A program made the position numbers and the translations under genes. Under the pieces are notes generated by a model. The model did no database searches. It was not told where the DNA came from and saw only the letters and a program-made list of their open reading frames with translations. A stretch of 64,000 bases of DNA from Isoetes taiwanensis (taxonomy: Eukaryota > Streptophyta > Lycopodiopsida > Isoetales > Isoetaceae). This document shows, one piece after another, positions 24,877 through 56,945 of this stretch. The stretch's first letter is position 1. Every line of letters begins with the position of its first letter. The stretch spans positions 4,678,754 to 4,742,753 of the forward strand of contig JAJEKV010000070.1 of assembly GCA_021234155.1 (NCBI GenBank). Reading direction: 5' to 3'.

Positions 24877-26497
24877 AGGACGCTCCAAAGACAATATACG
24901 GTTCTGTGACGAGTGAGTATTGTACCGCTTCACACGCCAGAGACGCCACTCCGCTCGGGAGTGTACGCCCGACGTAGTCAGGAGGGTAGCCTAGGGGTAA
25001 CTCGCAGAATGTGCAATTACTAATGTACATTTAACGACAGTACATTAATCTAGGTGCACATTTTCCAAGGTGGACACTTTATGCCAAGTGGGCTATACTA
25101 TGTAATAAATGTACATTTCCAATGTGCACATTATTAATGTGGGCACACCTTTTCCCATGTGGCACTTTTGCCACCTATTCCATTAAAGGTGGCCCATTCC
25201 CAATTATCCCACATGCTTGGGAAGTGGATAATTGGAAACCCTAACCACCCCCCTTGTCTATTTAGGAATAGAAACCCTAACTTGCCCATTTTCATTTCTA
25301 GGGTTTTAGAGCTCGCTTTTGGCTGCCCTATGGGTCAAAATCGCCTCCCGTATTTACCGTCTCGAGAATTGCACTATTGCTCTTGACTGAAAGCATTCCG
25401 CCAGGATGGTCGAATCTGTGTCAGAGGAGCCTCAAGGATCGTATTTTGTACAATTTAATAGCCTAAACCCTTTTTAGTCATTTAGCCAGTAGGGCTAGTA
25501 TATTAAATTGCCCATAGCAGCCTTCTAGGTCTCTAGATACTGGACGGAATCCAGAACCAATCATGATAGATTAGATCTAGTTCTTTAGTTCTATGTGATG
25601 TATGTGATGATGTACCTATGAACCTTGTATTGGGAAGGGGGGTAGAGACCCAAAGCTTGGTAGTAGATGCTCCTAGATTAGCCCTCTAGCACACTATAGA
25701 TCGCTCAGGTACAAGAACCACACCTGCTGTGGGTGGAAGGACTAGACCGGGCTTTATAAGGAGGTTCATGTTCTCGACTCGAACGATCCCGTGTAAACAC
25801 GCTGCCTCACCTGTGGGATCATAGTGACTAGGTTCAATGGTCGCCACCGAGTGTGGGCAAGGTATGGGCTCGACACCCGTGAAGTGGGCTCACTTTCCAT
25901 TGGGTTCAAGTCGACAAGGGCAAAGGGTCTCTAGTCCCCTTTTTGAGTCAAAGATGTAGATCTCCTCGAGGAAGAGATCTCACCGCCCCATCTGAATCGT
26001 GAGATAACCTGTGATATAGCCCCCTGGCCATATGCATCCGTGGGCTACGCTGTGTCCCAACACTTTTCAGCCTACTCGCAGCGTGCGGCTGTGGAGGGGC
26101 TAAGGAGGACAACCTAATGCCATAAGTTCTTATGCTGCACGTAACCATTGCTATGAATTCCGGCTCATGAAGAACTCGAGACTCCAAGCCGCCACCATCC
26201 CTATGCATCTCGAGCCTGTAGATCCCCTATATGCATTAGCCATCATTGTCTATGCAGAGGTGGTATGCCACCGAGGTGGCTATGTGTTGCTCTTAAGTGT
26301 ACCGGGACATGTATGTTTACGCCTGCTAGCCTAGGTAGGCCCCCGAGGGAGACGGAAATGACCTCAATTTGTAATCGGAACCCGCCAGGTTGCGTATGTC
26401 TTGTGAAGGGCCCCGACTTATTGGAGCCGGTATGGGAAGAATCTCGCTTGTATACTCGTGAGTGCACCGGTGATATTTAGTAGGGGGGATTGCCACA
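24877..26497 (+). repeat. 5' LTR of gypsy copy 1
   Basis: About 1.62 kb. The left edge reads aggacgctcc where other copies read tgtgacg, and the right edge is gccaca. It aligns along its length with the 3' LTR at 35946-39843 (after removing the Helitron) and with the LTR at 50076-51895. The first 250 bp contain many copies of the word tgtgcacatt and relatives. The Pol II promoter is expected near ttgtctatttaggaa (about 25,255), where copy 2 has a proper TATATAG. The short open frames within it are not genes. Confidence 0.85.
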
Positions 26498-26511: not shown

Positions 26512-26884
26512 ATGTTCTTGTGACCAAGAGCAAGCACCACCATGTCTCTAGTATTAATTTGATAGGATCCTTAAACCCTCAAAAATGGGAATTTTTTCAT
26601 TTTTGTAGTATTGCTGTTTAGTAACAAAGAAATGAACTAAACATAAAAAGATTAAGAATTGATGAGCCAACCTTCAAAAGAGGAGTCTTCATCGTCATGG
26701 CCAGATGTGAAATGACATTTTCATTTTCGGGTCAAGTAATGGGTGAGACATTCAAATTTTAAACACATTAAAAGTCACGAATTACAGTAAAATAGCTTGA
26801 TAATTCCAAATTAGAGCTAAGAATCAGTAGAATTAGCAAGTTACATGATTAAAAAGTAGCAAATTTGATAGTGGACCCCACCAT
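26512..26884 (+). other. Leader between primer-binding site and first hairpin, no gene seen
   Basis: AT-rich, with no open frame of note. Around 26,700-26,755 there is a weak version of the hairpin module (ccagatgtgaaatgaca ... cattttcgggtcaagtaatgggtgagac), more complete in copy 2 at about 52,100-52,170. Confidence 0.4.
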
Positions 26885-26951
26885 GTCTCACACGTCGCGC
26901 CAGGACAGGAAATGGGCTTTTCATTTTCGGGCTGGGCGCAACGTGTGAGAC
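26885..26951 (+). promoter_or_regulatory. Inverted-repeat hairpin module 1 upstream of the H3-like gene
   Basis: The outer arms gtctcacacgt and acgtgtgagac are perfect reverse complements. Inside them cgcgcc faces gggcgca, and a looser inner GAAATG/CATTTTC pair follows. It sits about 80 bp upstream of the TATA box of ORF1. The role is unknown. Candidates are a protein-binding operator, an insulator or an RNA structure in the genomic transcript. Confidence 0.65.
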
Positions 26952-27028
26952 CTTGCTTAGATTAAGGTGTTTTAGGTGTTCTAGATAACCCAAAAAAGGT
27001 AGTTTCAAGTTTGACCTAAAATTGCCCC

Positions 27029-27037
27029 TATAAATAG
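27029..27037 (+). promoter_or_regulatory. TATA box of the H3-like gene
   Basis: TATAAATAG lies 104 bp before the ATG. The same box in the same relation precedes ORF2 (28998) and both genes of copy 2 (52425 and 54341). The repeated layout argues for internal Pol II promoters independent of the LTR. Confidence 0.7.
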
Positions 27038-27140: not shown

Positions 27141-28397
27141 ATGGCCCGAACGAAACAGACCGCTAGGAAGCCCCGCCGAAGCACATCCTCCAGCGCCAGT
27201 GACCCCGCATTGATTCAAAGGGTACTTCGAGAACGCCTCCTTCGGCAAAGCGGATCGTCATCCAGGGAAGAAGTAGACTCCGATCAAAGCGACAGAACAG
27301 AAGTCATAGACGAGGAGGAGCAGCCGGAAGTAATGCACCAAATCCTCGAAGAAATCGCCGAAGAGGAGAGAAGGAGTAAGGAAGAACGGGAGCAGAGGGG
27401 ACAACCCACAGTAGAAGAGCAACTCGAAGCATGGACCCGTCTGCAAGAAGCCGAGGAGAGGGAGGAGCAGCAGCCGCCGGAGCTTACCCCTGCTGAAGAA
27501 GAAGATCTCGCACACTTCATCAGCAAATACGAAACCAGAGAGCTTCGTCGAGAAAAGAGAAGAAAAGAACGGGAGGACGACCCAACCGCAGCCGGCCAGC
27601 CGAAGAAGAAGAAAGCCAAAGGCATTAAGGTGGGTAACAGGAAAGTCGTGAAGGTCGGTAAGCGGGGGACAGGTATCTCCATCAACGAGCCATCAGGCGA
27701 CGAGACCCCGCCTTCTACCGACGACTCAGATGAGGACTATGTCCCCAACACAGAGGGCGCAAGCTCTTCGAAACCCCCAGTCGCACAAAAGGAGGTACCG
27801 GAGCAGGTGGTGCCTGATGAGCAGCAGCCCGGACAGCCGCCGAAGCCCCCACCGTTCCCGACGTGGGATAGGGCCAAAGCCCCACGGCCACAAAGGGAGG
27901 CGTACGTGATAGACCCGGTCAAGGTCTATCAGAAGAAGATTAAGGAGCACAACGCTTATATGGCGAAGTGGGAGGCATACAATGCCTATTACCAACAGCA
28001 CAGGGTACGGACAATTGAAGGCGGACACCCGACGAGGAGTCAGACGCTGAAGCCGCCACCACCAAAGCCCAAGCCTCCCAGAGCACCAGGAAAGAAGCGG
28101 AGCAAGGGCAAGCAGAAGGAGCAGAGAGCCCTCAAGGAGATCCGGCACTTCCAGAAGAGCTACGGACTCTTGATCCCCCAGGCACCGTTTCAACGCTTGG
28201 TCCGTAAAGTAATGCAAGAATACAACACGGACATGCGCGTGACCGACGAAATGTTGCTGTGCTTACAAGAAGCAGCAGAGGCGAAAATAGTGCAGCACTT
28301 CGAAGATTCAACGGCCTGCACAGTCCATGCGAAGAGGGTCACCCTCATGAGATCGGATATGTACCTTGCTAGGCACATCAAGGGAGAACGCCCTTGA
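27141..28397 (+). CDS. Histone H3-like protein encoded by a retrotransposon (ORF1)
   Basis: 418 residues, intact. Residues 2-10 are ARTKQTARK, identical to the start of histone H3 and including the K4 and K9 positions; the next residue is P where H3 has S10. Residues about 44-150 are strongly acidic and probably helical. Residues about 153-177 (KKKKAKGIKVGNRK) look like a nuclear localisation signal. A proline-rich stretch with a KVYQKKIKEHNAYMAKW segment follows. Residues 330-418 (28128-28394) align without gaps to H3 47-135: by eye about half are identical, including EIR-FQK, FQRLVR, LQEAAEA, HAKRVT and the closing GER. The residues matching H3 C110, H113, D123 and L126 at the H3-H3 interface are kept. 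LLIP-APF and VTLM recall centromeric CENH3, but loop 1 has the canonical length. Known H3 packages DNA with H4; for this protein nucleosome entry, or mimicry of the H3 tail, is inferred. The ATG is the first after the TATA box and begins the H3 match. Confidence 0.93.
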   Translation: MARTKQTARKPRRSTSSSASDPALIQRVLRERLLRQSGSSSREEVDSDQSDRTEVIDEEEQPEVMHQILEEIAEEERRSKEEREQRGQPTVEEQLEAWTRLQEAEEREEQQPPELTPAEEEDLAHFISKYETRELRREKRRKEREDDPTAAGQPKKKKAKGIKVGNRKVVKVGKRGTGISINEPSGDETPPSTDDSDEDYVPNTEGASSSKPPVAQKEVPEQVVPDEQQPGQPPKPPPFPTWDRAKAPRPQREAYVIDPVKVYQKKIKEHNAYMAKWEAYNAYYQQHRVRTIEGGHPTRSQTLKPPPPKPKPPRAPGKKRSKGKQKEQRALKEIRHFQKSYGLLIPQAPFQRLVRKVMQEYNTDMRVTDEMLLCLQEAAEAKIVQHFEDSTACTVHAKRVTLMRSDMYLARHIKGERP

Positions 28398-29119: not shown

Positions 29120-30636
29120 ATGGCCACTGCTGACTTCAGGCGATGGTACAGCGCCAGTGCGCACGGTACTGAGGCGGATGTCGATGACAGCTTCCGCGTC
29201 TTTGGGAAAGAAATTGATGTCCAAGCTACGCTGAATGCAACCCCAGCATATAGGCAAGTATTAGCAGAATTTCAAGCTAGGGTAGAACCCTCCCTTGTCC
29301 AAGTCCCCCCTTGCATAGGATATTTCGTTCCCCGCCCATCCCTCCAAACAGCCCTGGGCGATGTTCCCAACATCGCCAAGTACTTAACCAACAAAGCACA
29401 GAGGCTGCCAGACTACATGGTCCTCACAGCCAACAGGATCAAGTACTTCTCCTACACCGCCGCCCTAGCCATCTTCTTATCCCACCGCGCCGAAAACCCA
29501 ATGGGGGCAACCTCTATTCCTCCGATGGAGGTGGACCCCATAGCAGTGCAAGCACAAGAGCAGATGCTCTTGCAGTATCAGCAGGAGCAGGAAGGAAGAG
29601 AAGAAGAGGAGGAGTCGGACGACGATGACTACACGGAGCTCGACTCAGAGGAGGAGCGCCGACAAGCAGAAGAAGAGCTGGTCAGCTTCGAGCAGAGCCG
29701 GCAAAACATCAGAGTTGCTCCGCCACTTGGGCTAGGCATCACAAGCCTAGCCCCGATCATCATCAATGGAGAGGAGTATTTACTCCTCAGCGACATCCAT
29801 AACCTCCCCGAATGCAGGGAGAGGGAGCTCGACGATTGGACGAAGCCACTTCCACCAAGCGGTCCGGCTTGGGCGACTTCATCGTCCGCTGAGCCTCGAC
29901 TTTCCACTTCAAGTCGTGGAGGCCGACACCTACACGCGAAGTCGACTTCCGACATCCAAGCCTCAAAGCAAGATCGTGCAAATGATGGAGGAGCAAGAGC
30001 TGCCAACAGACGAGGAGTTCATCGCCCTCCAGGAACAGATGGGAATTCGCAGGAAGACCACAAGCATCTTAATGCCGAGGCCTTCGACACCACCTCCATC
30101 AAGAGGAGCGGGAATCGACCTCAGGCGAGTCGACTCCACAATTGAAGACTACAGGGACCTCACAGAGATAGAGGTCGAATTAATACGGGCGCACGTGGCG
30201 AGGCCAAACAAGCGAGAAGCTTCAGCGACGACAATGACAAAGTCCCCGAGGTACTACCGGCTAGCCGCTAGATGGGAGAATAGCGGTAATACACCGCAAA
30301 TTCAGCCCCCGTGGAGAAGAAGGAGTGTTCATGCTCATTGCACTCTCAGGGTTCGGCAGACATGCTCGCATAGCGGCAAATGTCGACTATGCCGTCCTGG
30401 TGAAGAGAGCAATAGCACTCGACCTCTTCGACTTCGCCATACCCCAATCGACGCCGCAAGACCCGGCGCGGTGACCGCAGCCCTTTACGTCCGAATCGCG
30501 AGGTGGAAGAGTCGGGCGAATACCTTGGTGTATGCTCGCCGCCAGCGTCATCAGGAACTTGGGTCGTTCGGTAGGAACGGCCCAAGTTAAGAAGTTCCTT
30601 GAGGACAACCCGTCTTACCGGCGATTTCAAGACTAG
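29120..30636 (+). pseudogene. ORF2, unrecognised acidic protein, frameshifted
   Basis: The ATG at 29120 follows its own TATA box and opens a frame of 341 codons. It contains a globular-looking N-terminal region (about 1-130, with PNIAKYLTNKAQRLPDYM), a very acidic stretch (about 155-190, with EEEEESDDDDYTELDSEEE) and a segment with GITSLAPIIINGEEYLLL. Coding appearance then moves to a second frame at about 29,880 (KIVQMMEEQELPTDEEFIAL) and to a third at about 30,310 (GVFMLIALSGFGRHARIA), reaching a stop at 30634-30636 after EDNPSYRRFQD. A TGA also interrupts the last part. At least two frameshifts are therefore needed to explain it. Copy 2 keeps the same segments in order. I know no family for it. 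The acidic stretch next to a histone-like gene makes a histone-binding role conceivable, but nothing in the sequence proves it. Confidence 0.7.
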
Positions 30637-30806
30637 TTAGACTCTTGATCCCGGAGACTTTTTGTACTGAAATATTATATAATATAAATATAATTTCTTT
30701 TGCACTTCAAATGTTTTGTTGATGTATTTTTGTCCCACAACTATACCAATAAACATAAACAATGCAAGAGAACAAATAAAACTAATCATATAGCCATGAA
30801 CTACTT
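30637..30806 (+). other. Spacer between ORF2 and gag with a likely 3' splice site at its edge
   Basis: Non-coding and AT-rich (tattatataatataaata). It leads to tgtatgcag at 30808-30816, a good plant 3' splice acceptor retained in copy 2 (tggtatgcag near 55,937). The ATGs immediately before gag (30796 and 30811) run into a stop at once, so gag may be expressed from a spliced RNA. Confidence 0.45.
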
Positions 30807-31805
30807 GTGTATGCAGTGAGAGGCCTAAGCTCAGGGGAACGACAACGCCAAGACCTTAGGGAAGAACAGAGTCCGCCCAGGCCACCTCCGGCAAGGAACC
30901 TATTCGAGGAGTTTGGACCCATGACCCCAGAAGAAGAAATATCGCAGATGAGGACGGACCTTGAGCAGATAAAGGCTTTGCTGGCCGCACAAACAGGAGC
31001 GGCTTCGGTGGGCAACGCTCAATTGCCGCAAGGATCAGCTCGGAAGACAGGAAGGGACAAGAAGAGGAGCAAGAGAGGGAGGTCCCCCAGCTCGGACTCC
31101 TCCGACTCAAGTTCAGATTCAGACTCCGACTCTGAGGAGGAAGAAGAGCAGGCCCAGGACCGAACAGATGGAAGGCAAAGGAACGCTGCAGATGGAAGGC
31201 AGAGGGATGCCCTAGAAGGACGACAAAGGGACACCAGAGCCTCGGACTATCAGAAGAAGGTAGACTCTGCATTGGGAAATGTTTGGAAAGCCAGGAAGCT
31301 CGAGCAATTCTCAGGCGAGAACAGGTCAGGCATGGAGGCAGAGGCGTGGCTCGATGAGATGAGCGAATATGGCAACGCTTATGGTATGAAAGATAAGGAC
31401 AAAGGCAGGGTAGCAACAGCCAACCTGAAGGGAGCAGCACGCATTTGGTGGAAGGGGTATGCAAAGGCCCATGGCTTGAGCAGGGATGCTTGCAGATTCA
31501 AGAAGTTTGCCAAAGCTTTCAAGCGCCACTACGTCCCAAGAGAGCACACGTCCAGCATGATGCAGCAGTTCTACAGGTTGCAGCAAGGCAACACATCGGT
31601 CCAAAAATATACAGAGGAATTCATGAGGCTAAGGCTTTATGTGCCAAAGTTAGGTGAGAAGCATGCAGTGGAAAGCTATATTGAAGGGTTGAATGAGGAG
31701 ATCCGCAAGCTTGTAAGGGCAATAAACCCTAAGACAGTATCAGAAGCGGAGTCCAAGGCAATAAGCTTGCAAGGGTCGGGACCCCAGAATAGCGGGCAGA
31801 GATAG
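30807..31805 (+). CDS. gag: Gag polyprotein (capsid domain) of gypsy copy 1
   Basis: The frame is open from 30786. Within it the first ATG is at 30921 (MTPEEEISQMRTDLEQ), and upstream residues would need a spliced start. A basic and Ser/Asp/Glu-rich linker (about residues 85-120 from 30807) precedes the retrotransposon Gag capsid region: VWKARKLEQFSGE, AEAWLDEM, ARIWWKGY, FKRHYVP and FMRLRLYVPKLGEKHAVESY are typical. Gag forms the particle that packages element RNA. The frame closes at TAG (31803-31805), but the same frame continues into the zinc knuckle, so this TAG looks like a nonsense change: copy 2 has aagcag where copy 1 has tagcag. The sequence after TAG (CAG TAC) only partly fits the plant readthrough context. 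Confidence 0.88.
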   Translation: MYAVRGLSSGERQRQDLREEQSPPRPPPARNLFEEFGPMTPEEEISQMRTDLEQIKALLAAQTGAASVGNAQLPQGSARKTGRDKKRSKRGRSPSSDSSDSSSDSDSDSEEEEEQAQDRTDGRQRNAADGRQRDALEGRQRDTRASDYQKKVDSALGNVWKARKLEQFSGENRSGMEAEAWLDEMSEYGNAYGMKDKDKGRVATANLKGAARIWWKGYAKAHGLSRDACRFKKFAKAFKRHYVPREHTSSMMQQFYRLQQGNTSVQKYTEEFMRLRLYVPKLGEKHAVESYIEGLNEEIRKLVRAINPKTVSEAESKAISLQGSGPQNSGQR

Positions 31806-33441
31806 CAGTACTTCCAGGATAAAGGCAAAGCAGCAGGAAGCTATAGCCCTAGGGCAGCCAGTCCGGGTCCAGCTAGAGCCCCATATGGTGGCAATCAGGG
31901 GAAGCAACAGGAGAAGAAGCAGGTGTCCTTCAAGGACAAGCAGGAAGGGTCGAACTATTCCAAAGCAGTGAGATCCTTTTTACAAGCTATGCCCAAGGAG
32001 AAGAGGCAGGAGTGCATGGAGAAACAGCTTTGCTTCAGATGCTTCCAGCCAGGTCATAGAACAGCTAACTGCCCCTACGTGATGAGCGCAGCGCTAGCAG
32101 AGTTGGGAGATTGGGACACTCTATCCGACGACGACGGCGAGGCAGCCCGCGACTACATCCAGGGTGAGTGTCATATCTTTGCCACAATAGATACTGAGCA
32201 AGCAGAGAGTCAGTATAAGGTAATTTCCACAGTAGGGAAGGCCAAGGCCAAGTCTTTCGTAGTCTTGATAGACTCGGGAAGTAGCCATAACTTTGCATCC
32301 CCCAGAATGGTTGAAATGTTGAAGTTGAAGCCATTGAAGTCGAAGCCGAGGCCTGTTGTGTTAGCAAGTGGGGCAGTAAGGCAGACAGCAGGCAAGAGGA
32401 TCAACTTCGACATTGACTTGCCAGGAATTAACATTCAAATGGGAGCAGAAGTAATGGGAATTGGCAGGTATGACTTGATCATAGGAATGGAGTACCTTGG
32501 ACCAGCAGGAGCCATCATTGATTGTGGAAAGTGGAATGTGATCTTCCCAACGCCCGACGGCAAAATCATTGAGATCACAGGTAAAGAAGTTGTCCCCATC
32601 ATGCAGTGTATGTCTTCTAAGCGGCTGTTCAAGTGCATCAAGAGCGAACAAGTAGCATACATCTTCAAGCTTGAGATTGAAGAGCCGGAGTCAGAAGAAA
32701 GCAAAGAAGACAAGGTGCTCAACAAGTTGCCGAAGCAAATAGCTGAGTTGATCACGGAATTCCACGATCTCTTTCCTGACGAGATCGAGCACCTCCCTCC
32801 TTACAGGGGAGTCGAGTGTGAGATAGCACTCGAACCGGGAACAAAGCCGACAAGTAAGGCTCCATACAGAATGATGACGCAGGAGTTGACGGAGCTAAAG
32901 AAGCAATTGCAGGAGTTGCTCGACCTAGGCTTCATCAGACCTAGCGTCTCTCCATTCGGAGCGCCCATTCTCTTTGTTAAGAAGAAGGATGGCAGTTTGA
33001 GGATGTGCATAGACTATAGACAGTTGAACAAGCACACCATCAAGAACAAGTATGCGCTTCCCAGATCGGATGATTTGATGGATCAGCTTCAAGGAGCAAA
33101 GGTCTTCTCCAAAATCGACTTAAGATCAGGCTATCATCAGATCCGGATAAAGGAAGAAGATATTCATAAGACCGCCTTCAGAACGCGGTATGGGCACTAT
33201 GAATTCACGGTAATGCCTTTCGGCTTATCGAATGCCCCAGCAACGTTCATGAGGCTCATGAACGACATCTTCAGGGAGTTCTTAGACACCTTTGTGATCG
33301 TATTCTTCGATGACATCTTGGTGTATAGCAGATCCCTTGAAGAGCACGTACAACACTTAAGGAGAGTGCTGGAGAAGTTGAAGAGGCACCAGTTGTACGC
33401 CAAGTTGTCGAAGTGTCACTTCGCAACAGAGAAGGTGGATG
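31806..33441 (+). pseudogene. pol: Zinc knuckle, protease and reverse transcriptase of gypsy copy 1
   Basis: In frame with gag after the TAG. A CCHC knuckle, [14 protein letters not shown] (about 32,032-32,073), would bind RNA. The aspartic protease follows, with [10 protein letters not shown] at about 32,265 (catalytic D-S-G). Reverse transcriptase runs from about 32,800 with [43 protein letters not shown] and FFDDILVYS at about 33,303, which carries the catalytic DD pair. Coding then breaks at 33,441: copy 2 has 567 further bases here (58528-59094) covering the connection and most of RNase H. The deletion joins ggtgga to tggagtt through a shared TGGA and also shifts the frame. Domain calls are sure; function in this copy is lost. 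Confidence 0.9.
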
Positions 33442-35079
33442 GAGTTCCTTGAAGAGTACGACTTTGATATAGTCTACAAGCCAGGGAAGCTCAATGTGGT
33501 AGCGGATGCGCTTTCAAGGCATCCCCTGACAACTAGAGTGCATTGCAATGCAATTTCAACGCTTTCCAGCGACTTCAGGAAGAAGATTGAAGAGTCCTTG
33601 CCAACGGATGTCGACTTCAAGGAAGTATGGGCAAGCTTATGCAGGGAAGCAAGAACGGATAAGGAGCGGGAAGCCTTCAAGAATTATAAGAAGGAAGGCA
33701 ACCTGTTATACCATAAGAACAAGTTGTGCGTGTCCGAATCATCAGGTGTAAGGAAATTGATCCTCCATGACACGCACAATAGTCCAATAGCTGGCCATGC
33801 GGGATTCATGAAAACATATTTCAAAGTGCGCAGCAGCTATTATTGGCCAGGAATGAAGAAGCAAGTAGCTCGCTACATCAAGGAATGTCAGCTATGTCAG
33901 CAGACGAAGGCGGAGCAGCTTCGAATTCCAGGGGCATTAGAACCATTAGCGGTGCCAAACGCCAAGTGGGAAGTGATCAGCATGGATTTTATAACAGGGC
34001 TTCCAAGAATAGTAAGAGGGAAGGATGCCTTGATGGTAGTGGTCGACAAGATGTCGAAGATGGCACATTTTGTGCCTTGCAGGACCACAGACACCGCTAT
34101 GGATACAGCAAAGCTCTTCACCAAAGAGATCTTTAGGCTTCATGGCATGCCAAGGGAGATCATCTCCGACAGAGACCTGAAGTTCATGAGCGCCTTTTGG
34201 CAAGACCTCTTTGCGACAATTCAGACGAAGCTATCCATGAGCACGGCGTATCATCCTCAGACGGATGGCCAAACAGAGCGGACCAACAGGATTTTAGAAG
34301 ACATGCTACGAAACTATGTCTGAAATAAGCAAGGTATGTGGGAAGAATTTATTCACTTGGTGGAGTTTGCATACAATAGCACCAAGCAAGAATCATCCCA
34401 AATGTCGCCGTTTATGATCAATTACGGCTATCAATGCCTAACCCCAGACACTTGGCACAATCCCGTGTCAAAAGTAGAAGTTTCGCAACATATGTTGGCC
34501 GATATGCAGCAGCTAGTGGAAGAAGTTCGGGGGTATCTTCTAGCAGCAAGGAGCAGGCAGAAGAGCATCGCCGACAAACATCGAACAGTCAGAGAGTTCC
34601 AAGTTGAAGACCATGTTTGGTTGAAGATCAAGGTAAAGCAGGCGAAGCTCAGGATCGGGAATTGCAAGAAGCTTGCTTCAAGGTGGGCTGGACCCTTCAG
34701 AATAGTCCAGAAAGTAGGTAATCAATCCTACAAGCTAGATTTGCCAGCACACCTGAAGATCCATAAAGTCTTCCACGTGAGTTTGTTGAAGAAGCATACT
34801 CCAAATCCAGACGAAGTCTTGGACACTCCAACGTTGTTGGAAATGACGGAGGAGCAATTGGAAATAGTTCCAGAATTGATTCTTGATAAAGCCTTCAAGA
34901 AAACAAGGAGATCAGAGTTTCTCCAATATTTGGTCAAGTGGAAGCACTTGCCGGTGGAAGACGCGACGTGGGTACTTAAGAAGGATCTATTAAAGCAGTA
35001 CCCGCAGTTTATGGAGCAATGGGACGGCAAGGTCATCTCCGAAGAAATCGGCTCAGGCATGTCGATTTGTGTAGATTAA
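33442..35079 (+). pseudogene. pol: Integrase with C-terminal chromodomain, in-frame stop
   Basis: It resumes after the deletion with the end of RNase H (YKPGKLNVVADALSRH). The integrase zinc domain is seen as H-x-x-x-H in THNSPIAGHAGF and C-x-x-C in CQLCQQ. The catalytic core has MDFITGLP (first D), ISDRDLKF (second D) and TDGQTERTNRI (E). TGA at 34321-34323 interrupts the same frame; copy 2 has CGA in its place, so a C-to-T change explains it. The rest (from 34324) contains FAYNS, the GPFRIV and HVSLLKK segments, and a chromodomain at about 34,870-35,030 (PELILDKA, FLQYLVKWKHLP, ATW). Integrase inserts the cDNA; chromodomains of this group usually guide it to histone-marked chromatin. Family assignment is certain; activity of this copy is not expected. 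Confidence 0.92.
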
Positions 35080-35945: not shown

Positions 35946-36087
35946 TGTGACGTTCCAGCACAATATACGGTTCCAGGACGTATATTGTACTGCTTCGTCA
36001 CGCGTACACGCCACTCCGCCTGACGTGTACGCCGACGTGTAGCCAAGAGGGTAGCCCTAGGGCAACCTGCAGGGAATGTGCAATTAC

Positions 36088-36220
36088 TAATGTGCACATT
36101 TAACCATGTGCACATTAATCTAGGTGCACATTTTCCAAGGTGGACACTTTATGCCAAGTGGGCCATACCCAAGTGTGTAATAAATGTGCACACTTTCCAA
36201 TGTGCACATTTATTAATGTG
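36088..36220 (+). promoter_or_regulatory. Cluster of palindromic AATGTGCACATT words in the LTR U3
   Basis: The palindrome aatgtgcacatt and variants (catgtgcacatt, ggtgcacatt, aatgtgcacac) recur at least five times within 130 bp. The cluster is kept in the other LTRs (25,010-25,150; 50,210-50,400; 61,735-61,930). Clustered palindromes of this sort in U3 are candidate enhancer sites for dimeric activators; the factor is unknown. Confidence 0.5.
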
Positions 36221-37289
36221 GGCACACCTTTCCATGTGGCACTTTTGCCACCTATTCCATTAAAGGCAAGTGGGCCCATTCCCAATTATCCCACATGCCT
36301 AAAGTGGATAATTGGAAACCCTAACCACCCCCCTTGTCTATTTAGGAATAGAAACCCTAACTTGCCCATTTTCGTTTCTAGGGTTTTAGAGCTCTGTTTT
36401 GGCTGCCCCAAGGGTCAAAACCGTCTCCCAGACGCTGTCTGAGAGAATTGCACCATTAGTTTCCCTTGATTCGAGCATTCCAGTAGGATGGTCGAACTCA
36501 GGCCAGGAGGAGCCCCTCAAGGATCAGGTATTTTGCCAATTTAATAGCCTAAACCCTCTTTTAGTCATTTAGCTAGTAGGGTTAGCATATTAAATTGCCC
36601 ATAGCAGCCTTCTAGGTCTCTAGATACCAGACTCTAACTAAAGAACCTAATCTTTATTATAATGTTTTAGGGTGTGTCTTGAACCACGCCCTAATTTCGA
36701 CGGTCGAGATTTCACGCCCTAATTTCGACGGTCGAGATTCGTTTGACTATTCCATTCTTGGTTTGGGTCGTATTCTTCTGGCTTGCGGAAAAAATGCTGG
36801 CGGCCCGATCCTTGCAGGTCTTTTTGAAGCTAGGTATGGCCGGAAGAGCAGCATATGATGCTGCTGGCGTATGGCCTAACTTCCTCTGTGGACGCCTGCA
36901 CTGCAGAGCCCGGATTCAATTTTGGACCTGTGGAGCTTCAGCCAGCGATCTTGGCCTGCGGCTGGAGCAGCCAGCTATGGAGGTATGGTCTGACTTCGCT
37001 GCCTCTTGCCTTTGATGCGGTCGCAAAGAACGAACTCCGGCGAGCAGTTTCGAGGTAACTTTTACAAAGAAGCAGAGAAAGATGTAAGCTTCATTTGATG
37101 ATTAAAGCTCCATGTTTATTTTTCCCTAGATCGACATGTGCTCTTGATGAATACGAGCTTCGCTCTCTCTTTGCTATGGTCTACTTCTGTGTGCTTTAAC
37201 TTCACCTCTTTTGGATTCAGATGATTCCTGGAGCAGCCAGCTATGGAGGTATGGTCTGACTTTGCTGCCTCTTGCCTTTGATGCGGTCT

Positions 37290-38235
37290 GTGAGCAGCTT
37301 CTGGATTTGGAAATTTTGAGCATAAGGGGAAGAACTGCCCTAAGGTAATTATTCTATACATGAGTTGCATTTTAAGCTGAACATACGATGTGCAGTTTCT
37401 TTTGTCTTCTAATTGCGTTTTGATATTTGTGTGTTTCTTATTAGATGTCTGAATGCCATTATTGTGGTAACTCTGGTCACAAGGCAAAGGCTTGCCCTCA
37501 GAACATCCTTGGAAACTTCAAAGGAGATGTCTCATGCTATAATTGTGGTGAATTTGGTCACTCTGGCATGGTTTGTTCACTGGCTTTATTAGTTTTTTGT
37601 ATTATGAAGTATATAGTGATTATCCATCTGCTGCAATGTAGGGCTGTGCAAAGTCGCGACATGCTAGAGAAAAACCTGCTGAAAGACCTGCACAAACGTG
37701 CTACAAATGTGGAGAGGAAGGACATTATGCCCGTGGGTGTATGAAAATTCCAAATGTATGTACAACCCCTTGGTTCCATGCATGTTCGGTTGCCTATTTA
37801 GATGGCTGCTCTTCAATTAACTGTACCTTATCTATTCAGATTGTGAAGTGTTACATTTGCAAGCAAAGTGGCCATTTATGCTGTCAAAACATCCTTGGAA
37901 ACTTCAAAGGAGATGTCTCATGCTTACCTTATCTATTCATATTGTGAAGTGTTACATTTGCAAGCAAAGTGGCCATTTATGCTGTCAAAACATCCTTGGA
38001 AACTTCAAAGGAGATGTCTCATGCTATAATTGTGGTGAATTTGGTCACTCTGGCATGGTTTGTTCACTGCCTTTATTAGTTTTTTGTATTATGAAGTATA
38101 TAGTGATTATCCATCTGCTGCAATGTAGGGCTGTGCAAAGTCGCGACATGCTAGAGAAAAACCTGCTGAAAGACCTGCACAAACGTGCTACAAATGTGGA
38201 GAGGAAGGACATTATGCCCGTGGGTGTATGAAAAT
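37290..38235 (+). pseudogene. Captured exons of a CCHC zinc-knuckle protein gene
   Basis: Exon-like blocks with splice signals are visible: one ending in HKGKNCPK before gtaatt (about 37,345); one after attag at 37445-37570 with CHYCGNSGHKAKAC and CYNCGEFGHSGM before gtttgt; one after gtag from 37642 beginning GCAKSRHA and containing CYKCGEEGHYARGC before gtatgt; one after ttcag at 37840 with CYICKQSGHL. The exon 37570/37642 junction completes a C-x2-C-x4-H-x4-C knuckle, which supports the intron call. The last block is duplicated in tandem and fused to a second copy of the 37501-37740 region. Proteins with runs of such knuckles bind single-stranded nucleic acid. No full gene is present; retained introns show capture at DNA level. 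Confidence 0.8.
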
Positions 38236-38853
38236 TACAACCCCTTGGTTCCATGCATGTTCTGTTGTAATTCATATGGCAGTGTATTTGAGGATATCCA
38301 TGTTTTGCCTGAACTGTGGGGTTTTGCAGAAAAGGAAAAGGTGGCATGAACCATGGGACTCTGGAGATCTCTTTACATTGTTAAGCACTTTTTGAAAAAA
38401 GCGAGCTTTTGAGTGATACATGTAGAAAGATGTGGATGTGATGCACGTAGAAAGATGTGGATGCAACAAGGGTATATAATTAAATTATTTTTGTTCTATG
38501 AAGCATATGTATTGTATTAAATCATCTAAGAGAAAATATAAAGACTATTCTTAGATTCAATTAATATGATGATATGATTAGAGTTTTCCCTATCTTATCA
38601 TTCTATTTATTGTAAAAAGTAGCATGCAATGATGATTTAGCTCATATGCAATGGAATCTTTCGTTCTAGGTTTCTACAATACTACAAACTTATGAGTGTT
38701 AATATTGCTCATTCATTTACTTTGTCTAAATTTGAAGCAAGTTTGATACACGGTTCTCAAATTCACAAGTAGGTAACACATTACTACAAAAAAGCCTTAC
38801 CCCAACAACACTCCTGAACAAATACTCTTCGTGTACGAATATAAAATATATGG

Positions 38854-38883
38854 AGTGCCCACCGAAGGTGGGCACTTTACTAG
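38854..38883 (+). other. Helitron 3' terminus hairpin and CTAG
   Basis: The stem agtgcccacc/ggtgggcact with loop GAA is followed by ttaCTAG. In Helitrons this hairpin marks the end of rolling-circle transfer. Confidence 0.9.
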
Positions 38884-39843
38884 TTCTATGATATAGATTA
38901 GATCTAGTTCTTTAGTTCTTATGTGATGTATGTGGATGATGTACCTCTATGAACTCCTTGTATTGGGAAGGGGGGTAGAGACCTAAAGCTTGGTAGTAGA
39001 TGCTCCTAGATTAGCCTCTCTAGCACACTATAGATTCGGCCTGTGTACAAGAACCACACCTGGTTGTGGGTGAAGGGACTAGACTGGCTTATAAGGAGGT
39101 TCATGTTCTGACTCCTGAACGATCCCCCTGGTGTGTAATGTCTACCGGGGATCATAGTGACTAGGTCTAATGGCTTGCCACTGAGTGTGGGCAAGGCATG
39201 GGCTCGACACCCGTGAAGTGGGGTTCACTTTCCATTGGGTTCAAGTCGAATAAGGGCAGTGGCCCTCTAGTCTCCTTGAGTCAGCATGTAGATCTCTGGA
39301 GGAAGAGATCCCTACCTGCCCCATCGGAACTGGGGAGATGTAACCCAGGATATAGCCCCCTCGGCTATGCATCCGGCGGGCTACAGTCAGGTCCCAACAC
39401 TTTTCAGCCTACTCTGCAAAGTGTGCACAGGAGGGGCGGATGGAGTGGACAACCCAATGCCATGTTCTTATGCCAGCCAAATCCATTGCTATGAATTCTG
39501 TCTGCGATGAACTCTGGAGACCCAAGCCGTCAGTCATCCCCATGCGTCTGAGCCTTGGGTAGGATCCCCTATATGCATTGTGCTGATCATTGTCTATGCA
39601 GATGTGGTATGCCACCCTTCGAGGTGGCTATGTGTTGCTCTTATGTACTGACATGTATGTTTACGCTTCCGCAGCTAGGTAGGCCCTGAGGGAGACGGGG
39701 TAAAATGACCCCTTCACTCTTCCCATCGAACCCGCCCAGGGAAAAGGTTCTTGTGAAGGGCCCCGACGGCATGGAGCTGGTATGGGGGAAGAACTCCTGT
39801 TTGTATACGGTGAGTGCACCGTATACGAGTAGGGGACGTCACA

Positions 39844-50075: not shown

Positions 50076-51895
50076 TGTGACGCCCAAAGACGGTATACGC
50101 CCCCGTGACGATATTGTAATCGCCATCGTCACGCCGCATTAACGCCACCCCCGATTGACGTGTACGCCAACGTGTAGCCAAGTGGGTAGCCCTAGGGGGC
50201 AACTTGCTAAGAATGTGCATTAGCATTAATGTGCACATTTTCCAATGTACACATTAATGTGGGCACACATTTCCATGTGGCCACTTGATGCCAAGTGGGC
50301 CATACCCTTAGGTGCAATTAATGTGCACATTTCCCAATGTACACATTCATTAATGTGCACACATTTCCATGTGAGCACATTTGGGTGCAATACATTTCCA
50401 TGTGGGCACATTTGGCCACCTAGCCCTTAAAGGCAGTGTTCATTACCAATTATCCCACATGCCAAAAGGGATAATTGGAAACCCTAGCCAACCCTTTGTC
50501 TATATAGGGTTGGAAACCCTAACTAACCTAATTTTCGATTTTAGGGCTTTAGAACTCTGCTTTGGTCAGCCTCAAACAAACCAAAACCGCATCCCACTTT
50601 TGCCCGAGAGAATTGCCTCCTTAGTTCCTCGAGATTCGAAAGCGCTTCAAACAGGATGGTCGAAGCTCAGTCGAGGAGCCCTCAAGGATCAGTATTTGGG
50701 CCAATTAGATAGTCTAAACCCTATTTTAGTCATTGAATCAATAGGTTTAGCCTATTAGATTGCCCATAGCAGCCCTCTAGATCCCTAGATAGTAGATCCT
50801 AACTAAAGAACCTAACTCTATGTTGTAGATTAGATCTTGTTCTTTAGTTCTTCCTCGCGGATGTATATGGATGATGTATCTCTATGAACTCCTTTGTATT
50901 GGGAAGGGGGGGTAGAGACCTAAAGCTTTGTAGTCGATGCTCCTAGAGTAGCCTCTCTAGCACACCAGAAGTTGCGGCCTCGGGTACAAAAGCCCGCTTT
51001 GGTTGTGTTCTTAGGGGTCGACCCAGGTTGATAAGGGTGGTCGTGGTCCATAGCGGCTGCTCTCTCGATGTAAAGTCTACCCCGAGAGCATTGCGACTAT
51101 TAAGCGCTTAATACCGTGGACCTGCGGCACCCCCGAGTATGAGTTCGACACCCGCTGGGGATAAGAAGTCGCGGCCTGGGCGCACGGCATACCAGGGTTT
51201 CAACCGGCCATGTGTTGCAGCTGGTTGTGTCCGGTACGGGGTCCTGACCGCCGCGGTGGTAGTTCCCTTCAAGTGGGTTAAAGTCGAAAGTACGGACAGC
51301 TTGGTGTCCTCTAGTCCGGCCACTGCGGCATTGATCATCCGGGTGGGAGAGAAACCTCCTTACCTGCCTCATCGGGTCTGGGGAGATGTAACTGCTATAG
51401 CCCCTTTGGCTATGATCCCGCAAAGCTACTTGGCCTAACCCCCGAAGCTCTTCAACCTATCCGCAAAAGTGTACACGGGAGGGGCGGATGGAGTGGACAA
51501 CCCTAAGCCATGTTCTTATGCCAGCCAAATCCATTGCCATGAATTCACTCAAGAATGAACTCTGAGACCTGCAAGCTACCATCCCTTTGAGTCCGAGCCT
51601 TGGGTAGGATTTCCTATGTGATGTGCTGATCTTTGTCTCTCAGATATGTGGAGGACCATCCTTCGATGGTCATATGATGTTGATGTATGTGCTACATGAC
51701 ATGTATGTTCACGCTTCCGCAGCCTAGGTAGGCCCCGAGGGAGACGGGGTGCAATGACCTTCCACTCTTCCCACCGAACCCGGCCACGGTTGCAAAGGTC
51801 ATGTGGGGCCCCAGATTAGCATGGAGCCGGTATGGGGATGAACTCCTGTTTGCATACCTGCGAGTGCAATCGTGATAATGAGTAGGGACGCCACA
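50076..51895 (+). repeat. 5' LTR of gypsy copy 2
   Basis: 1.82 kb, starting tgtgacgcc and ending acgccaca. It has a U3 cluster of tgtgcacatt-type words, a TATA box and then a long downstream part similar to copy 1. It is longer than the copy 1 LTRs by about 0.2 kb. Confidence 0.88.
50501..50507 (+). promoter_or_regulatory. LTR TATA box
   Basis: TATATAG within ctttgtctatatagggtt; the corresponding site at 62,020 is TATATAAG. Copy 1 LTRs have ctatttagg here, a poorer box. Confidence 0.6.
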
Positions 51896-51898
51896 AAG

Positions 51899-51910
51899 GG
51901 TATCAGAGCA
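51899..51910 (+). other. Primer-binding site for initiator tRNA-Met
   Basis: ggtatcagagca, three bases after the LTR end, matches the end of the common plant site TGGTATCAGAGC apart from the first base. Confidence 0.8.
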
Positions 51911-52284
51911 ATGTTCTTGGTGACCAAGAGCAAAGCAATCCCACCATGTTCCCATAGTACTAACTTGATAGGATCCTTAAACCTCGAAAATGGGAAAAAT
52001 TTTTTCATTTTTGTAGTTATGCTAAGCTAGTAAATGCTTAAAATGAATAAAAATGTAAAAAGATTAAAAATTGATGAGCCAACATCCAAAAGTAGGAATT
52101 CTCACACGCCGCTACTGACGTATTTCTACATTTTAGAAATCGTCAAGAACGGGTGAGACATTCAAATTTTGACACCAAAAAGTTGTAAATTACAAAGAAA
52201 AAAATACTTTGATAATTCTAAATTTAAGCTAAGAATTAGTAGATTTTAGCATGTTACATGTTAATTAATAGTGGGCCCCACCAT

Positions 52285-52351
52285 GTCTCACACGCCAGCC
52301 ACAGATGTGTTTCTAGATTCTAGGAATGGGCCGGGCTTAACGCGGTGAGAC
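52285..52351 (+). promoter_or_regulatory. Inverted-repeat hairpin module, copy 2, upstream of the H3-like gene
   Basis: Outer arms gtctcacacgc and gcggtgagac, with inner arms ttctaga/tctaggaa. Its position relative to the TATA box is the same as in copy 1, although the inner sequence differs. A weaker module lies at about 52,100-52,170. Confidence 0.55.
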
Positions 52352-52424
52352 CTTGCTTAATTAGGGTTTTAGATGCCTTAGACAACCCAAAAAGGTAGTT
52401 TAAAAGTTGACCTAAATTTGGCCC

Positions 52425-52433
52425 TATAAATAG
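52425..52433 (+). promoter_or_regulatory. TATA box of the copy 2 H3-like gene
   Basis: TATAAATAG, 99 bp before the ATG at 52532. Confidence 0.65.
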
Positions 52434-52531
52434 AACCGCACTCTCCCATTTTTCCCGCTCTTCCCTAGAACTTCGCCAGGCCGCCAAGGCGATCTTCCGG
52501 GCGCTTAGTCCCATCGACAAACCGTAAGATC

Positions 52532-53746
52532 ATGGCCCGCACGGGCGTATCGCGAAGGAAGCTCTAGCCGGCGGATCCTCCAATACCGGTGATCCGCCTC
52601 TTTCACGAGATTCTTCGAACGCCTTTCTCAACAACGACGAATCTTCGCCGAGCGAGGAAGCAAGGTCGGACCGCAAAATTACCACACGTAGCTCTTGAGG
52701 ACGAATCGCCGACGCCATGAACGCAGATCCCTCGACGAAAATCGCACGGGAGGAAGGAAGAAGCTGGCAACACCGTGATCAACCCCAAGTTGAGATCCAC
52801 CCGCAGGAGGAGCAGGAAGAGAGGAGCAGCCGCCGAACTCACCCCGAAGAAGAGGCCGACCGCACGCTTTGTCGACAAGGCACGGCCAAGGAGCGCCGAG
52901 CAGCAGAGGACAAAGAGCCGAAGACGACCCCGGATACGGCCCAAATTTTACCCAAGAAGAGGAAGGCCAAGGCCATAAAGGCGTGCAAGAGGAAGGTGGT
53001 CAAGGTTGGGAAGAGGGCAGAGAACCTTGTCATCAACGAGCCGCCGGGAAAGGAGACCCCACCCACCCAATCGACGATTCAAGACCAAGACTACGTGCCG
53101 GGCGCCAGACGGCAAGCTCTTCAAAGCCCCCGGTCAGAGAGGAAGAGGTACCCGGCGGCATCGCCCAAGAGCGTGAGGAGGCCGGGCAGTGGCGGCCCCC
53201 CACCATTTCCAACGTGGGATAGGGTCAAGGCCCCACGGCCGCGAACGGAAGTTTGCGTGATAGACCCTTTAAAGGTCTATCGAAGAGGATCGTGGAGCAC
53301 AACGCATATATGGCAAAGTGGGAGGCCTACAATGCCTATTACCGTGAGCACCGGGTGAGAACGATTGAAGGCGGCACCGACCTAAGAGCCGCACACTAAA
53401 GCCCCTCCACCAAAGCCCAAGCCTCCACGAGCACCCGAAGAAGCGGAACAAGAAGAAGAAGCCGGAAGACAGGGGCACTCAAGGAGATCCGCCACTTCCG
53501 TAAGAGTTACGGACTCTCGATTCCCCGCGCCGCTTCCAAAGTTGTTCCGGGTCCGCTGGGTCATTCAAGAATACAACACGGGCATGCGCTGATGTATTTA
53601 GATGTTGCCGTGTTTGCAAGAGGCGCCGGCCCACTTGGTGAAACATTTTGAAGATTCAACGGCCCGCACAAAGGTACGCCAAGAGGGTCACCCTCATGAG
53701 GCAGATATGTATCTTGCCGCACACATCAAGGGAGAACGCCCTTTGA
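52532..53746 (+). pseudogene. Histone H3-like gene of gypsy copy 2, many frameshifts
   Basis: It starts atggcccgcacg, so MART is kept, but the rest of the H3 tail is garbled and an early TAG follows. Middle parts match ORF1 of copy 1 in other frames (VVKVGKRAENLVINEP; TWDRVKAPRP; KVYRR). The histone-fold region at about 53,480-53,745 is recognisable in pieces: KEIRHF, KSYGL, IQEYNTGMR, HFEDSTA and HIKGERP. The stop codon is displaced by one T. The preserved order shows that the family, and not only copy 1, carries the gene. Part of the damage may be sequence error. Confidence 0.85.
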
Positions 53747-53891
53747 ACCTTGTAAATGACTGCAAAGATTTTGTTAATATAAAGAAATTTTCGTGGTAAA
53801 TAGAGTGTCAAACCCTGCTTAAATAGGTTAAGATATCGATCCCCAGCCTTTGTTTTAATTAAATTGGAGTTTTGAGCAAAATTGAGACGAT

Positions 53892-53959
53892 GTCTCACAC
53901 GCCGCTACCAGACGTGACATTTCTACATTTTAGAAATCGGGCCGGGCGAACGGTGAGAC
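53892..53959 (+). promoter_or_regulatory. Inverted-repeat hairpin module 2, copy 2
   Basis: Outer arms gtctcacacg and cggtgagac. Inner arms atttcta and tagaaat flank cattt. The inner arm sequence differs from copy 1 yet pairs perfectly. Confidence 0.65.
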
Positions 53960-54091
53960 CATGCCCAAAATGCCCAAAACAGCTCCAAATCGACTGGGTA
54001 AGGGGTCAATTCTGCCTAACTCGATGAGTTTAGTGGAATTACAGCCTTAGATCACCTTGAATTGAGTAATCCTAGCCCAATTAGACCCATA

Positions 54092-54160
54092 ATCTCACAC
54101 GTCGCTACCCAAAGCGCATTTCTACATTTTAGAAATCGCCCCGGCGCAACGTGATGAGAC
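54092..54160 (+). promoter_or_regulatory. Inverted-repeat hairpin module 3, copy 2
   Basis: Outer arms tctcacacgt and acgtgatgaga (one extra base); inner arms atttcta and tagaaat, as in module 2 of this copy. Confidence 0.65.
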
Positions 54161-54340
54161 CCCGCATCTATTCCCTTACCAAATGATCTCCAAATTGCAA
54201 TAATAGGTTCAAGAGTCGTGTTTAGCATGCTCAAACCCTAGAAATATACTTCAAACTTGCAATTGCATCACTTAATAGGTTAGAACTGCCTAATCTCAGT
54301 AAATTCTAGGTCATCCAAAAATTAGGGTTTTCCCCTTTTC

Positions 54341-54349
54341 TATAAATAG
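54341..54349 (+). promoter_or_regulatory. TATA box of ORF2, copy 2
   Basis: TATAAATAG, 114 bp before the ATG at 54463, the same spacing as in copy 1. Confidence 0.65.
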
Positions 54350-54462
54350 GTCCCCCATTTCTCAAATGGCACCCCTCGCAAGTTTGCTCCCCACCGCTTA
54401 GGGCGATCTTTCAGCCCCCGAGGCGCTTCAAGATCCGCTTGATACTCCCCCTTGCTAGAGCT

Positions 54463-55753
54463 ATGGCCATCGCCGACTTCGGGCGATGGTACGCAAAGGT
54501 CTATGCCGCCGAGGCGGATGTCAACGACATCTTCCAAGTCTTTGGGAAAGAAATCGACATCCAAGCCACGCTAAATGCAACCCCAAAGATATATAGGCAG
54601 TGCTAGCAGAATTTCAGTGCTAGGGTAGGACCCTCCCTTGTCCAAGTCCCCCAGATAGGATACTTCGCTCCCCGCCCATCCCTCCAAGTAGCCCTTTGGG
54701 CGATGTCCCCAACATCGCCAAGTACTTAACTAACAAGGCGCAGAGACTACTCGACTACATGGTCCCGACAGCCAACAGACTAAGTACTTCTCTTTAATCC
54801 GCCTCTAGCCATCTTCTTATCCCACCACCGAAACCCGATGGGGGCAACTCTATCCTCCGATGGAGGTAGACCCCATAGCAAAGGCAAGAGGAAGAGCGAT
54901 GTTGTTGCAAAAGATCAACAGAGAGCAGGAGGCAAGAGAGGATGAAGAAGAGTCTGACGACGAAGGATACACGGAGCTCCGACTCGCACGTAAGAACGGC
55001 GCCAAGGAGAGCAGAGCTGATCAATTTCGAAAGCAGAGACAGCAGGCATCGAGTTGTTCTCACTCTGCTAGGCATCACAAGCCTAGCCCCTATCATCATC
55101 GACGAGAGGAGTATCTACTCCTCAACCGACATCCGTAACCTTCCCGAATGCGGGAGAGGGAGCTTCCAAGTTGACGAATCGCTTCCACCACCGCGCGGAC
55201 CGACATGGACGACTTCATCGTCCGGGGAGCCTCGTGACTTCCCCGGGCTTCAAGTGAGAGTCCGACACCTACACTGTGGGGAGACGACGTCCCGATATCC
55301 GTGCCTACGCTAAGATCGTGCAATTGATGGACGAAATGAGAGCTGCCAACAGAGGAGGAGTTCCTCGCCTCCAAGAACAGATGGGGATCCGTGGAAGACC
55401 ACGAGCATCCTAATGCCGAATCCTCCACATCACCCCCGCCAAAAGAAGAAGGAGTGTTCATGCCGATTGCACTCTCGTTTCAAGCAGCATGCTCGAATAG
55501 CAACAAACGCCGACTATGCCGTCTTTTAGTCAAGAGGGCAATAGCACTTGACCTTCGACTTCGCCATACCCCACCGAACACGCCGCGAGATTAGCAAGGA
55601 TCACCCCCTTACATCCCAATCGCAGGGTAGAAGACCTCGTGAGGGCTATACAGGAGGCTCGCCTAGCATCATCGAACTTGGGTCACCGTAGGGACGGCCC
55701 AAGTTAAGAAGTTTTTGAAGACAACCCCTCTTACCGCGACATTTCAAGACTAG
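54463..55753 (+). pseudogene. ORF2 of gypsy copy 2, frameshifted
   Basis: It begins ATGGCCATCGCCGACTTCGG and follows the copy 1 gene throughout: FGKEIDIQATLNATP, PNIAKYLTNKAQRL, the acidic EDEEESDDEGYTEL stretch, ITSLAPIII, the VFMPIALS segment, and a stop after the phrase matching EDNPSYR. Several frame changes interrupt it. The conserved order of segments in two copies supports ORF2 being a real gene of the family. Confidence 0.75.
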
Positions 55754-55936
55754 TTAGACTCTTGATCCCGTAGACTTTTTGTATCCGAAATATTATATGA
55801 TATATGAATATAAATCCTATTGCACTTTAAATGTTTTGTTGATGTATTTCTGCCCCACAAGTATACCAACAAACATAAACAATGCAAGAGAACAAATGAA
55901 ACTAATCATATAGCCATGAATTGCTTGTGGTATGCA

Positions 55937-56945
55937 GCTTAGAGGCCTAAACGCTAGGGGAACCATTAACCGCAGATCTTATAGAAGAGCAAACCCCACC
56001 CGCACTTCACCCCCTGAAGGAACCTCGCTTTGAAGATATGGAACCCATGACCCCAGAGGAGGAGATAGCCCAGATGAGGACGGACCCGAACAGATAAAGG
56101 CATTACCGTCCGCCAAGCAAGCGTGAGTGGGTTCGCGGGCAACGCCGCTGCCGCAAGCATCAGCCTCTGAGGGCAGGAAAAGACAAGAAGAGGAGCAAGA
56201 GAAGGAGATCCTCCAGCCCGGAATCTTCCGGACTCAAGTTCGTGACCGACCCGGAAGAGGAAGAGGAAGAACAGTCCGAAATCCAACAGATGGAAGGCGA
56301 GGAACACCCCGTGATGGACGATAAAGAGACACTGTGGCCTCCGACTACCGTAAGAAGATAGATTCCCGTGACCGGCAATGTATGGAAGGCCCGGAATCGA
56401 ACAGCCTCGTGGGAGAACAGGTCGATTAGAAGCAGTAAGCATGGCTGGACTAAATGAGTGAGTACGGCAACGCTTTATGGCATGAAAGACAAAGACAAAG
56501 GCGTGGGCTGCAAATGCCAACTTGAAAGGAGCCGCACGGATTTGGTGGAAGGGTTATGCAAAGGCACACGGGTTTGAGCAGGGATGCTTGTAAGTTCGTA
56601 AAGTTTGCTAAAGCCTTCGCCATTACGCTCCAAGGGAACATAAGTCCAAAGATGATGCAAAGAAGCTTTACCGGCTGCAAAGAAGGCAACAAATCACCCA
56701 GAAATATACGAGGAATTCATGAGGCTAAGGTCAGTATGTGCCGGGTTAGGAGAGAAGCATGCAAGAGAAAGCTATGTCGAGGGGGCTGAATGAGGAGATC
56801 CGCAAGCTTGTGAGAGAGCAATAAACCCTAGGACAAGATCGTAGAAGCGTAATCCAAGGCTATAAGCTTGCAGGGCTCGTGACCCTCGCATTAGCGGCAC
56901 AAGCAGCGCATTTCCGTGAGAAAGGCAAGGCTTACTGAAGCTATA
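55937..56945 (+). pseudogene. gag: gag of gypsy copy 2
   Basis: It follows tatgcag (the conserved acceptor-like site) and matches copy 1 gag across the acidic linker and the capsid segments (GAARIWWKGYAKAH, RDACKFVKFAKAF). There are many indels. Where copy 1 has the TAG closing gag, this copy reads aagcag, so the family gag-pol was probably one open frame. Confidence 0.85.

Follow-up and report, generated by a model that had tools for sequence, protein, structure and literature searches.

The window analysed here, a stretch of 64,000 nucleotides of the Isoetes taiwanensis genome (contig JAJEKV010000070.1, positions 4,678,754 to 4,742,753), contains two copies of a long terminal repeat (LTR) retrotransposon. 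The first copy carries, ahead of gag, an open frame (ORF1) for a protein with the N-terminal tip of histone H3 at one end and an H3 histone fold at the other (Table 1). It is inserted in a chromovirus of the Ty3/gypsy type, in which gag is preceded by two extra genes. LTRs, gag, protease, reverse transcriptase (RT) and integrase follow one another in the expected order, a chromodomain is found at the C-terminus of the integrase, and the conserved frame beside gag-pol lies before gag, not after pol. That a retrotransposon encodes an H3-like protein had been proposed in the first-pass annotation, and both the profile match and the element context uphold this reading. It is also true, as stated there, that ORF1 is fully open while the gag-pol of the same element is broken: in-frame stops lie between gag and pol (31803-31805) and at 34321-34323.

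Table 1. Features of the two element copies in the window (positions counted from the first letter of the window)
Feature	Position	Strand	Evidence or remark
5′ LTR, copy 1	24877..26497	+	blastn against 3′ LTR: 80.9% and 84.1% identity in two blocks; edges set by eye
Long hairpin before ORF1	26884..26952	+	repeat family; folding z-score
TATA-like box	27029..27035	+	112 nt upstream of ORF1 start
ORF1	27141..28397	+	418 aa, H3-like protein; Pfam Histone E 8.3e-27; at least 100 related loci
H3 tip, residues 2-10 ARTKQTARK, then P	27144..27170	+	dN/dS 0.065 (21 copies)
Acidic stretch TDDSDEDYVP, residues 193-202	27717..27746	+	mostly kept in family A (alignment)
Conserved linker block, residues 241-300	27861..28040	+	dN/dS 0.084; predicted helix 259-287
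H3 fold, residues 330-418	28128..28394	+	56% identity to H3, no gap; dN/dS 0.048 (330-414)
Similar hairpins before ORF2	28542-28610, 28741-28809	+	
ORF2	29120..30145	+	no Pfam family above cut-off
gag	30786..31805	+	Retrotrans_gag E 1.6e-17; terminates at in-frame stop
Zinc knuckle region, protease, reverse transcriptase	31806..33452	+	RVP_2 E 1.1e-7, RVT_1 E 2.4e-38
Integrase zinc-binding and core domains	33382..34323	+	Integrase_H2C2 E 1.2e-20, rve E 2.8e-9; terminates at stop
Integrase C-terminus and chromodomain (about 34867-35025)	34324..35079	+	Chromo E 1.8e-10
3′ LTR, copy 1	35946..39843	+	blastn; split by insertion 36628-38892; edges set by eye
Copy 2, decayed	about 50076..62084	+	73-82% identity to copy 1; same gene order; ends approximate
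ORF1 relic, copy 2	52533-53746	+	

The LTRs of copy 1 are flanked by CTCTC at 24872-24876, the likely left target-site copy, and at 39844-39848; judged by these LTRs, the copy is old. A candidate primer site, a stretch like the plant initiator-Met site, follows the 5′ LTR. Copy 1 lacks a stretch near 33.43 kb, at the expected place of RNase H between RT and integrase, and copy 2 has about 550 nt more there; the ORF2 frame of copy 1 is probably broken towards its end. The 2.3-kb insertion in the 3′ LTR carries repeated CCHC zinc-knuckle segments, with direct repeats of 261 and 101 nt. Minus-strand genes for tRNA-Thr(AGT) and tRNA-Arg(TCT) form a tandem array at 39842-44798 that repeats about every 900-920 nt, and worn tRNA-like repeats occur at 10.3-14.3 kb and 22-24.8 kb. 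Copy 1 thus sits inside a tRNA array.

Copy 2 adds to the picture drawn in the first-pass annotation, which had described the open frame correctly in a single copy; the frame belongs to a large family, with a decayed second member within the window. The ARTKQTARK tip is lost in copy 2, and the fold regions of the two copies differ at 19 of 90 first, 14 of 91 second and 38 of 91 third codon positions, so that changes at third positions still predominate. Hairpins precede the extra genes in both copies. The three in copy 1 have folding z-scores of -7.5, -8.1 and -6.2, and those of copy 2 are found at 52285-52352, 53891-53960 and 54092-54162; the outer stem is common to both copies, the inner part differs and the z-scores range from -8.1 to -2.5 overall. 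TATA-like boxes, possible promoter elements of the two extra genes, are likewise present in both copies, 108-112 nt before the ORF1 starts and 122 nt before the ORF2 starts.

The open frame of ORF1 spans 27015 to 28397. Residues 2-10 read ARTKQTARK, as first reported, and the likeness to H3 then stops, S10 and the later H3 tail being missing past residue 9 of the histone; throughout the window's own family, hereafter family A, H3 tail residues 11-40 are absent. The fold follows about 310 residues after the tip. A profile search, suggested earlier as a check, matches Pfam Histone over residues 299-414 (E 8.3e-27; score 94.3 bits, cut-off 26.4), and BLASTP aligns residues 330-417 with canonical H3 48-135 (counting the Met of the record) without a gap and with 49 of 88 positions identical. 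The gap-free alignment thus stands, and an identity given before as roughly half is corrected to 56%, a little over half (56-58% for family A). The best relative by sequence in the PDB is an H3.3 (E 6e-27). When whole ORF1 was compared with protein collections, 2605 of the 8000 candidates scored were matches, and the six sequences inspected among the 120 matches listed proved to be H3, or else repeats or fusions of the H2A-H3 type. In viral contigs, 10 stretches fitted a search pattern and none was confirmed as a relative. Centromeric H3 (CENH3) typically has a longer loop 1; because the fold aligns gap-free with canonical H3, ORF1 lacks this longer loop and was not assigned to CENH3 on this feature.

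For the linker of family A, taken alone (residues 12-330), 7759 candidates out of 5.8 billion proteins included no relative at E<=10. Within its acidic stretch, DEDYVP may resemble the motifs with which Swc5/CFDP1 bind H2A-H2B, a tentative lead. No match came from the PDB with 36 residues covering this stretch as query, and a motif of this type is not given in the parts of PMC13426437 and PMC11139478 that were available.

The genome assembly searched comprises 1,658,258,908 bases in 1110 contigs. With ORF1 as the query, 115 matches were found in at least 100 loci, at 68-100% identity and with the window's own included (100 of 15,879 first-look candidates were scored), and many of these loci are full length with no stop listed. 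Rates of substitution were estimated in 20 of the 100 family A loci and the window copy (21 rows). The exact tip is present in 16 of the 20 loci and differs in L043, L048, L053 and L057. The loci were chosen, spread over identity, among copies with no stop listed, so the sample leans to intact copies. By residues, dN/dS in this sample is 0.065 (2-10), 0.44 (11-20), 0.22 (21-150), 0.20 (151-240), 0.084 (241-300), 0.27 (301-329) and 0.048 (330-414, the lowest of the regions measured), with dS between 0.33 and 0.83. Many synonymous codons are used at several positions of the tip, so its conservation is at the protein level; purifying selection, strong in the tip and the fold, also acts on one block of the linker.

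These data bear directly on the idea that the frame is a neutral passenger, or a host H3 pseudogene caught in an element. The broken state of the other genes in copy 1 and the decayed ORF1 of copy 2 are what such an origin would leave behind. Against it stand the related loci, at least 100 in number and many of them open, a dN/dS far below the value near 1 expected of a passenger, and the same gene place in several subfamilies (see below), so that this explanation is in effect refuted. A host H3 pseudogene present in one copy is ruled out by the many copies, their open frames, their location inside elements and the purifying selection on them. By its pattern of substitutions, ORF1 is a gene of the element under purifying selection.

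Exact starts consisting of ATG and any codons for ARTKQTARK number 1051 across the genome, host H3 genes included, compared with none for reversed-pattern controls; together with the Pfam E-value, this excludes a chance likeness to H3. In 419 of the 1051 starts the next two nucleotides are CC, that is, proline at position 10. Among 35 exact element tails for which the sequence was fetched, residue 10 is P in 25, V in three, F, Y and A in two each and R in one, and S10 is found in none. The share of P is biased by how the tails were picked, 17 of the 25 coming from the window's own family and eight from loci selected by the P pattern, and the other 10 having been taken by their codons from the list of 1051, with known host-gene and P-start places skipped; the absence of S in the 35 is less affected. 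A constraint that ends at K9, combined with the loss of S10 in all 35 tails, suggests a use of the tip via K4 and/or K9 and that phosphorylation of S10 is unwanted.

Family A is one of several kinds of element with an H3 frame. In a profile search of the genome, 150 of 8705 candidates were scored, and all but five of these list no stop (as counted from the listing). Fifteen host H3 genes were fetched among the top matches; the 22 places fetched after them (L016-L038; L022 and L031 are the same) are all of kind B or C. Frames of elements are more numerous than the 15 host H3 genes fetched from these top matches, so a count of H3 genes by profile would come out too high in this genome, and can do so in others like it, through copies of the element. 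In B and C, ORF1 has a different N-terminal domain, a linker and an H3 that is nearer the canonical one but has a worn tail and lacks the ARTKQTARK tip; H3 residues are kept at 75 of 89 fold positions in B and 79 of 89 in C (two rows compared). The N-terminal domain (seen in L022, L032, L033 and L035) is about 200 residues long, with about 30% identity between B and C, and the N-terminal domain and linker of B (residues 16-375) have no protein relative at E<=10 among 1913 candidates. In B, dN/dS is 0.046 for the fold (16 copies), 0.10 for the N-terminal domain and 0.22 for the linker (six rows each for the latter two); the three rows of C are too alike for an estimate.

The H3 frames of B and C lie in the same setting as that of A. 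gag is found downstream in all eight neighbourhoods fetched and RT in seven, L037 having none within range. A TATA-like box near the distance seen in the window is absent at eight B/C ORF1 starts (seven places, given the identity of L022 and L031), and two of the six ORF2 starts scanned, in L031 and L032, have one at -87/-86. Kind D has ARTKQTARKP, an unrelated linker and a fold nearer host H3. One D copy is followed by ORF2, RT (66% identity) and integrase (89%), with no match to gag at E<=1; another has no ORF2, gag, RT or integrase within 7 kb. E (L059, L066 and L076) is a fourth kind, of which L059 is flanked by pieces of ORF2, gag, RT, integrase and chromodomain, and L066 has no fold match within its stretch. 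The exact tip is common to subfamilies with unrelated linkers. ORF2 is a second extra protein, present in A, B, D and E elements, and relatives were located in L032 (5206-6534), L037, L068 and L069 (6-1631).

The fold tree separates A, D and E from host H3, B and C, and B and C from host H3, both with starred support. Trees of pol with eight and nine rows also set A, D and E apart from B and C, and here B and C are intermixed. Because host H3 joins the two groups on a near-zero branch of an unrooted tree, one capture and two captures are both compatible with it. The LTR blocks of the one B element compared are 100% (573 nt) and 94.7% (1075 columns) identical, so H3-carrying elements have also moved more recently.

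How far these proteins could serve as histones was judged from the positions of H3 that we take to contact H3′, DNA and H4. H3-H3′ contacts are kept at 9 of 12 positions in A, 10 in E, 11 in D and all 12 in B and C. DNA contacts are kept at 8 of 14 positions in A and E, 12 in D (L062) and B, and 13 in C. For H4 the counts are 12 of 23 in A, below the other fold positions of this family (25 of 43), and 19 of 23 in B and C. By these counts B and C look nucleosome-ready and A less clearly so. AlphaFold models of single chains are of low confidence (mean pLDDT 53.6 for ORF1 of A, from 21 rows, and 51.2 for that of B, from 12 rows), and when the fold of the B model was searched against the PDB, 162 matches had E<=10 but none reached E<=0.001.

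The main rival explanation is a soluble decoy acting outside nucleosomes, whose tip would mimic H3 for readers, writers or erasers while the fold holds H4 or histone chaperones. A tip whose constraint ends at K9 (dN/dS 0.065 for residues 2-10 and 0.44 for 11-20), the partial loss of DNA-contact positions in A and the long linker would all suit a decoy, whereas the strongest constraint among the regions measured falls on the fold (0.048), and B and C keep nearly all of the assumed nucleosome contacts. Selection on both tip and fold fits entry into nucleosomes as well as a decoy and so favours neither. On balance we consider a decoy unlikely.

The reading we prefer, at a probability of about 0.45 and thus somewhat under even odds, is that ORF1 encodes a variant of H3 which, paired with host H4, would enter nucleosomes or the histone pathway and counter silencing. 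Hosts silence transposons partly through marks on H3, and removal of the initiator Met before Ala is usual for H3; given this removal, ORF1 of A, D and E would expose a free A1-K9 tip. On this reading ORF1 is an accessory gene of a chromodomain-bearing Ty3/gypsy element; its H3-like protein descends from an H3 of host type and has been maintained by selection. Its fold would pair with host H4, and the protein would enter chromatin or the histone-supply pathway and display K4 and K9 on its free N-terminus, without S10 and the H3 residues after it. It would thereby counter the silencing of the element's DNA.

Several observations argue for such an H3 variant: the profile match and gap-free fold, the 100 or more loci, the 1051 exact tip starts (host genes included), the low dN/dS of tip and fold, the place before gag, a tip that stays exact across unrelated linkers, the absence of S10 from all 35 tails, the H3-H3′ contacts that are kept and, in B, C and D, the DNA contacts. 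Others argue against it. Family A keeps only 8 of 14 DNA and 12 of 23 H4 contacts, no better than other positions, and lacks tail residues 11-40; B and C are tipless, the tip of copy 2 is lost, the structure models are weak, and the copies used for dN/dS were picked from stop-free loci.

A more specific form of the H3-variant reading holds that a retrotransposon lineage supplies its own H3, which enters nucleosomes, possibly those on the element's own DNA, with a tail made of residues 1-9 and an arm of about 300 residues; this we regard as doubtful. On the same view, and with the same caution, this tail would retain K4 and K9 but neither the phospho-switch at S10 nor the modification sites beyond it, and the element would in this way write part of its own chromatin state. 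If so, this would be the first known retroelement making chromatin and not only reading it.

The chromodomain of the integrase offers a further alternative, in which the H3 protein would accompany the cDNA or the integrase and condense the cDNA, tether it to chromatin or be bound by the element's own chromodomain. Chromodomains of such elements are reported, in the portion of the study available, to read H3K9 marks, which would suit a role in targeting or packaging; for one plant chromodomain type, however, the same portion states that the partner was not found (PMC3350952). We rate this alternative as improbable, a little more so than the decoy.

An H3-encoding element with a selected tip and fold would be a direct counter-move against silencing. 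It would also be a natural experiment on which nine residues of the tail it pays to retain, and thanks to the many diverged copies the idea can be tested on individual proteins and peptides.

Compared with canonical and H3.3-type plant H3, ORF1 has the same fold and the same A1-K9 tip; the tip-bearing families differ from it in lacking S10 and the later tail and in having a long non-histone linker before the fold, and B and C in having another N-terminal domain and a worn tail. In the sections available of a 2022 review of viral histones (PMC9145170), whose text contains no word starting with 'retro', single H3 histones of DNA viruses and a bracovirus H4 are described, some with changed or extended tails; incorporation into host nucleosomes is reported for the H4 of bracovirus. 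These are likewise cases of a selfish element carrying a host-like histone. The carriers in those sections are DNA viruses or virus-derived, whereas here a high-copy LTR retrotransposon of a 1.66-Gb genome encodes an H3 whose tip stops at K9 and is followed by a linker of about 310 residues. On the element side, the nearest parallels are plant Ty3/gypsy elements with additional ORFs (PMC7264820) and an orchid element that carries an ALKBH5-like demethylase of host type (PMC9289625), which, as far as the available parts of these papers go, share the conserved extra frame. In those parts, most of the extra frames are placed between pol and the 3′ LTR, and no histone is among them. Seedless-plant chromoviruses have the same gag-pol order with a chromodomain at the end of the integrase; the portion available of their description (PMC3350952) mentions no histone gene, and here two extra genes precede gag. 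Within the open-licence literature searched, no retroelement-encoded histone is described and phrases such as 'retrotransposon-encoded histone' are absent. A captured histone in a selfish element is thus known already, and what appears to be new is the retroelement that carries it, the layout of the protein and the many copies.
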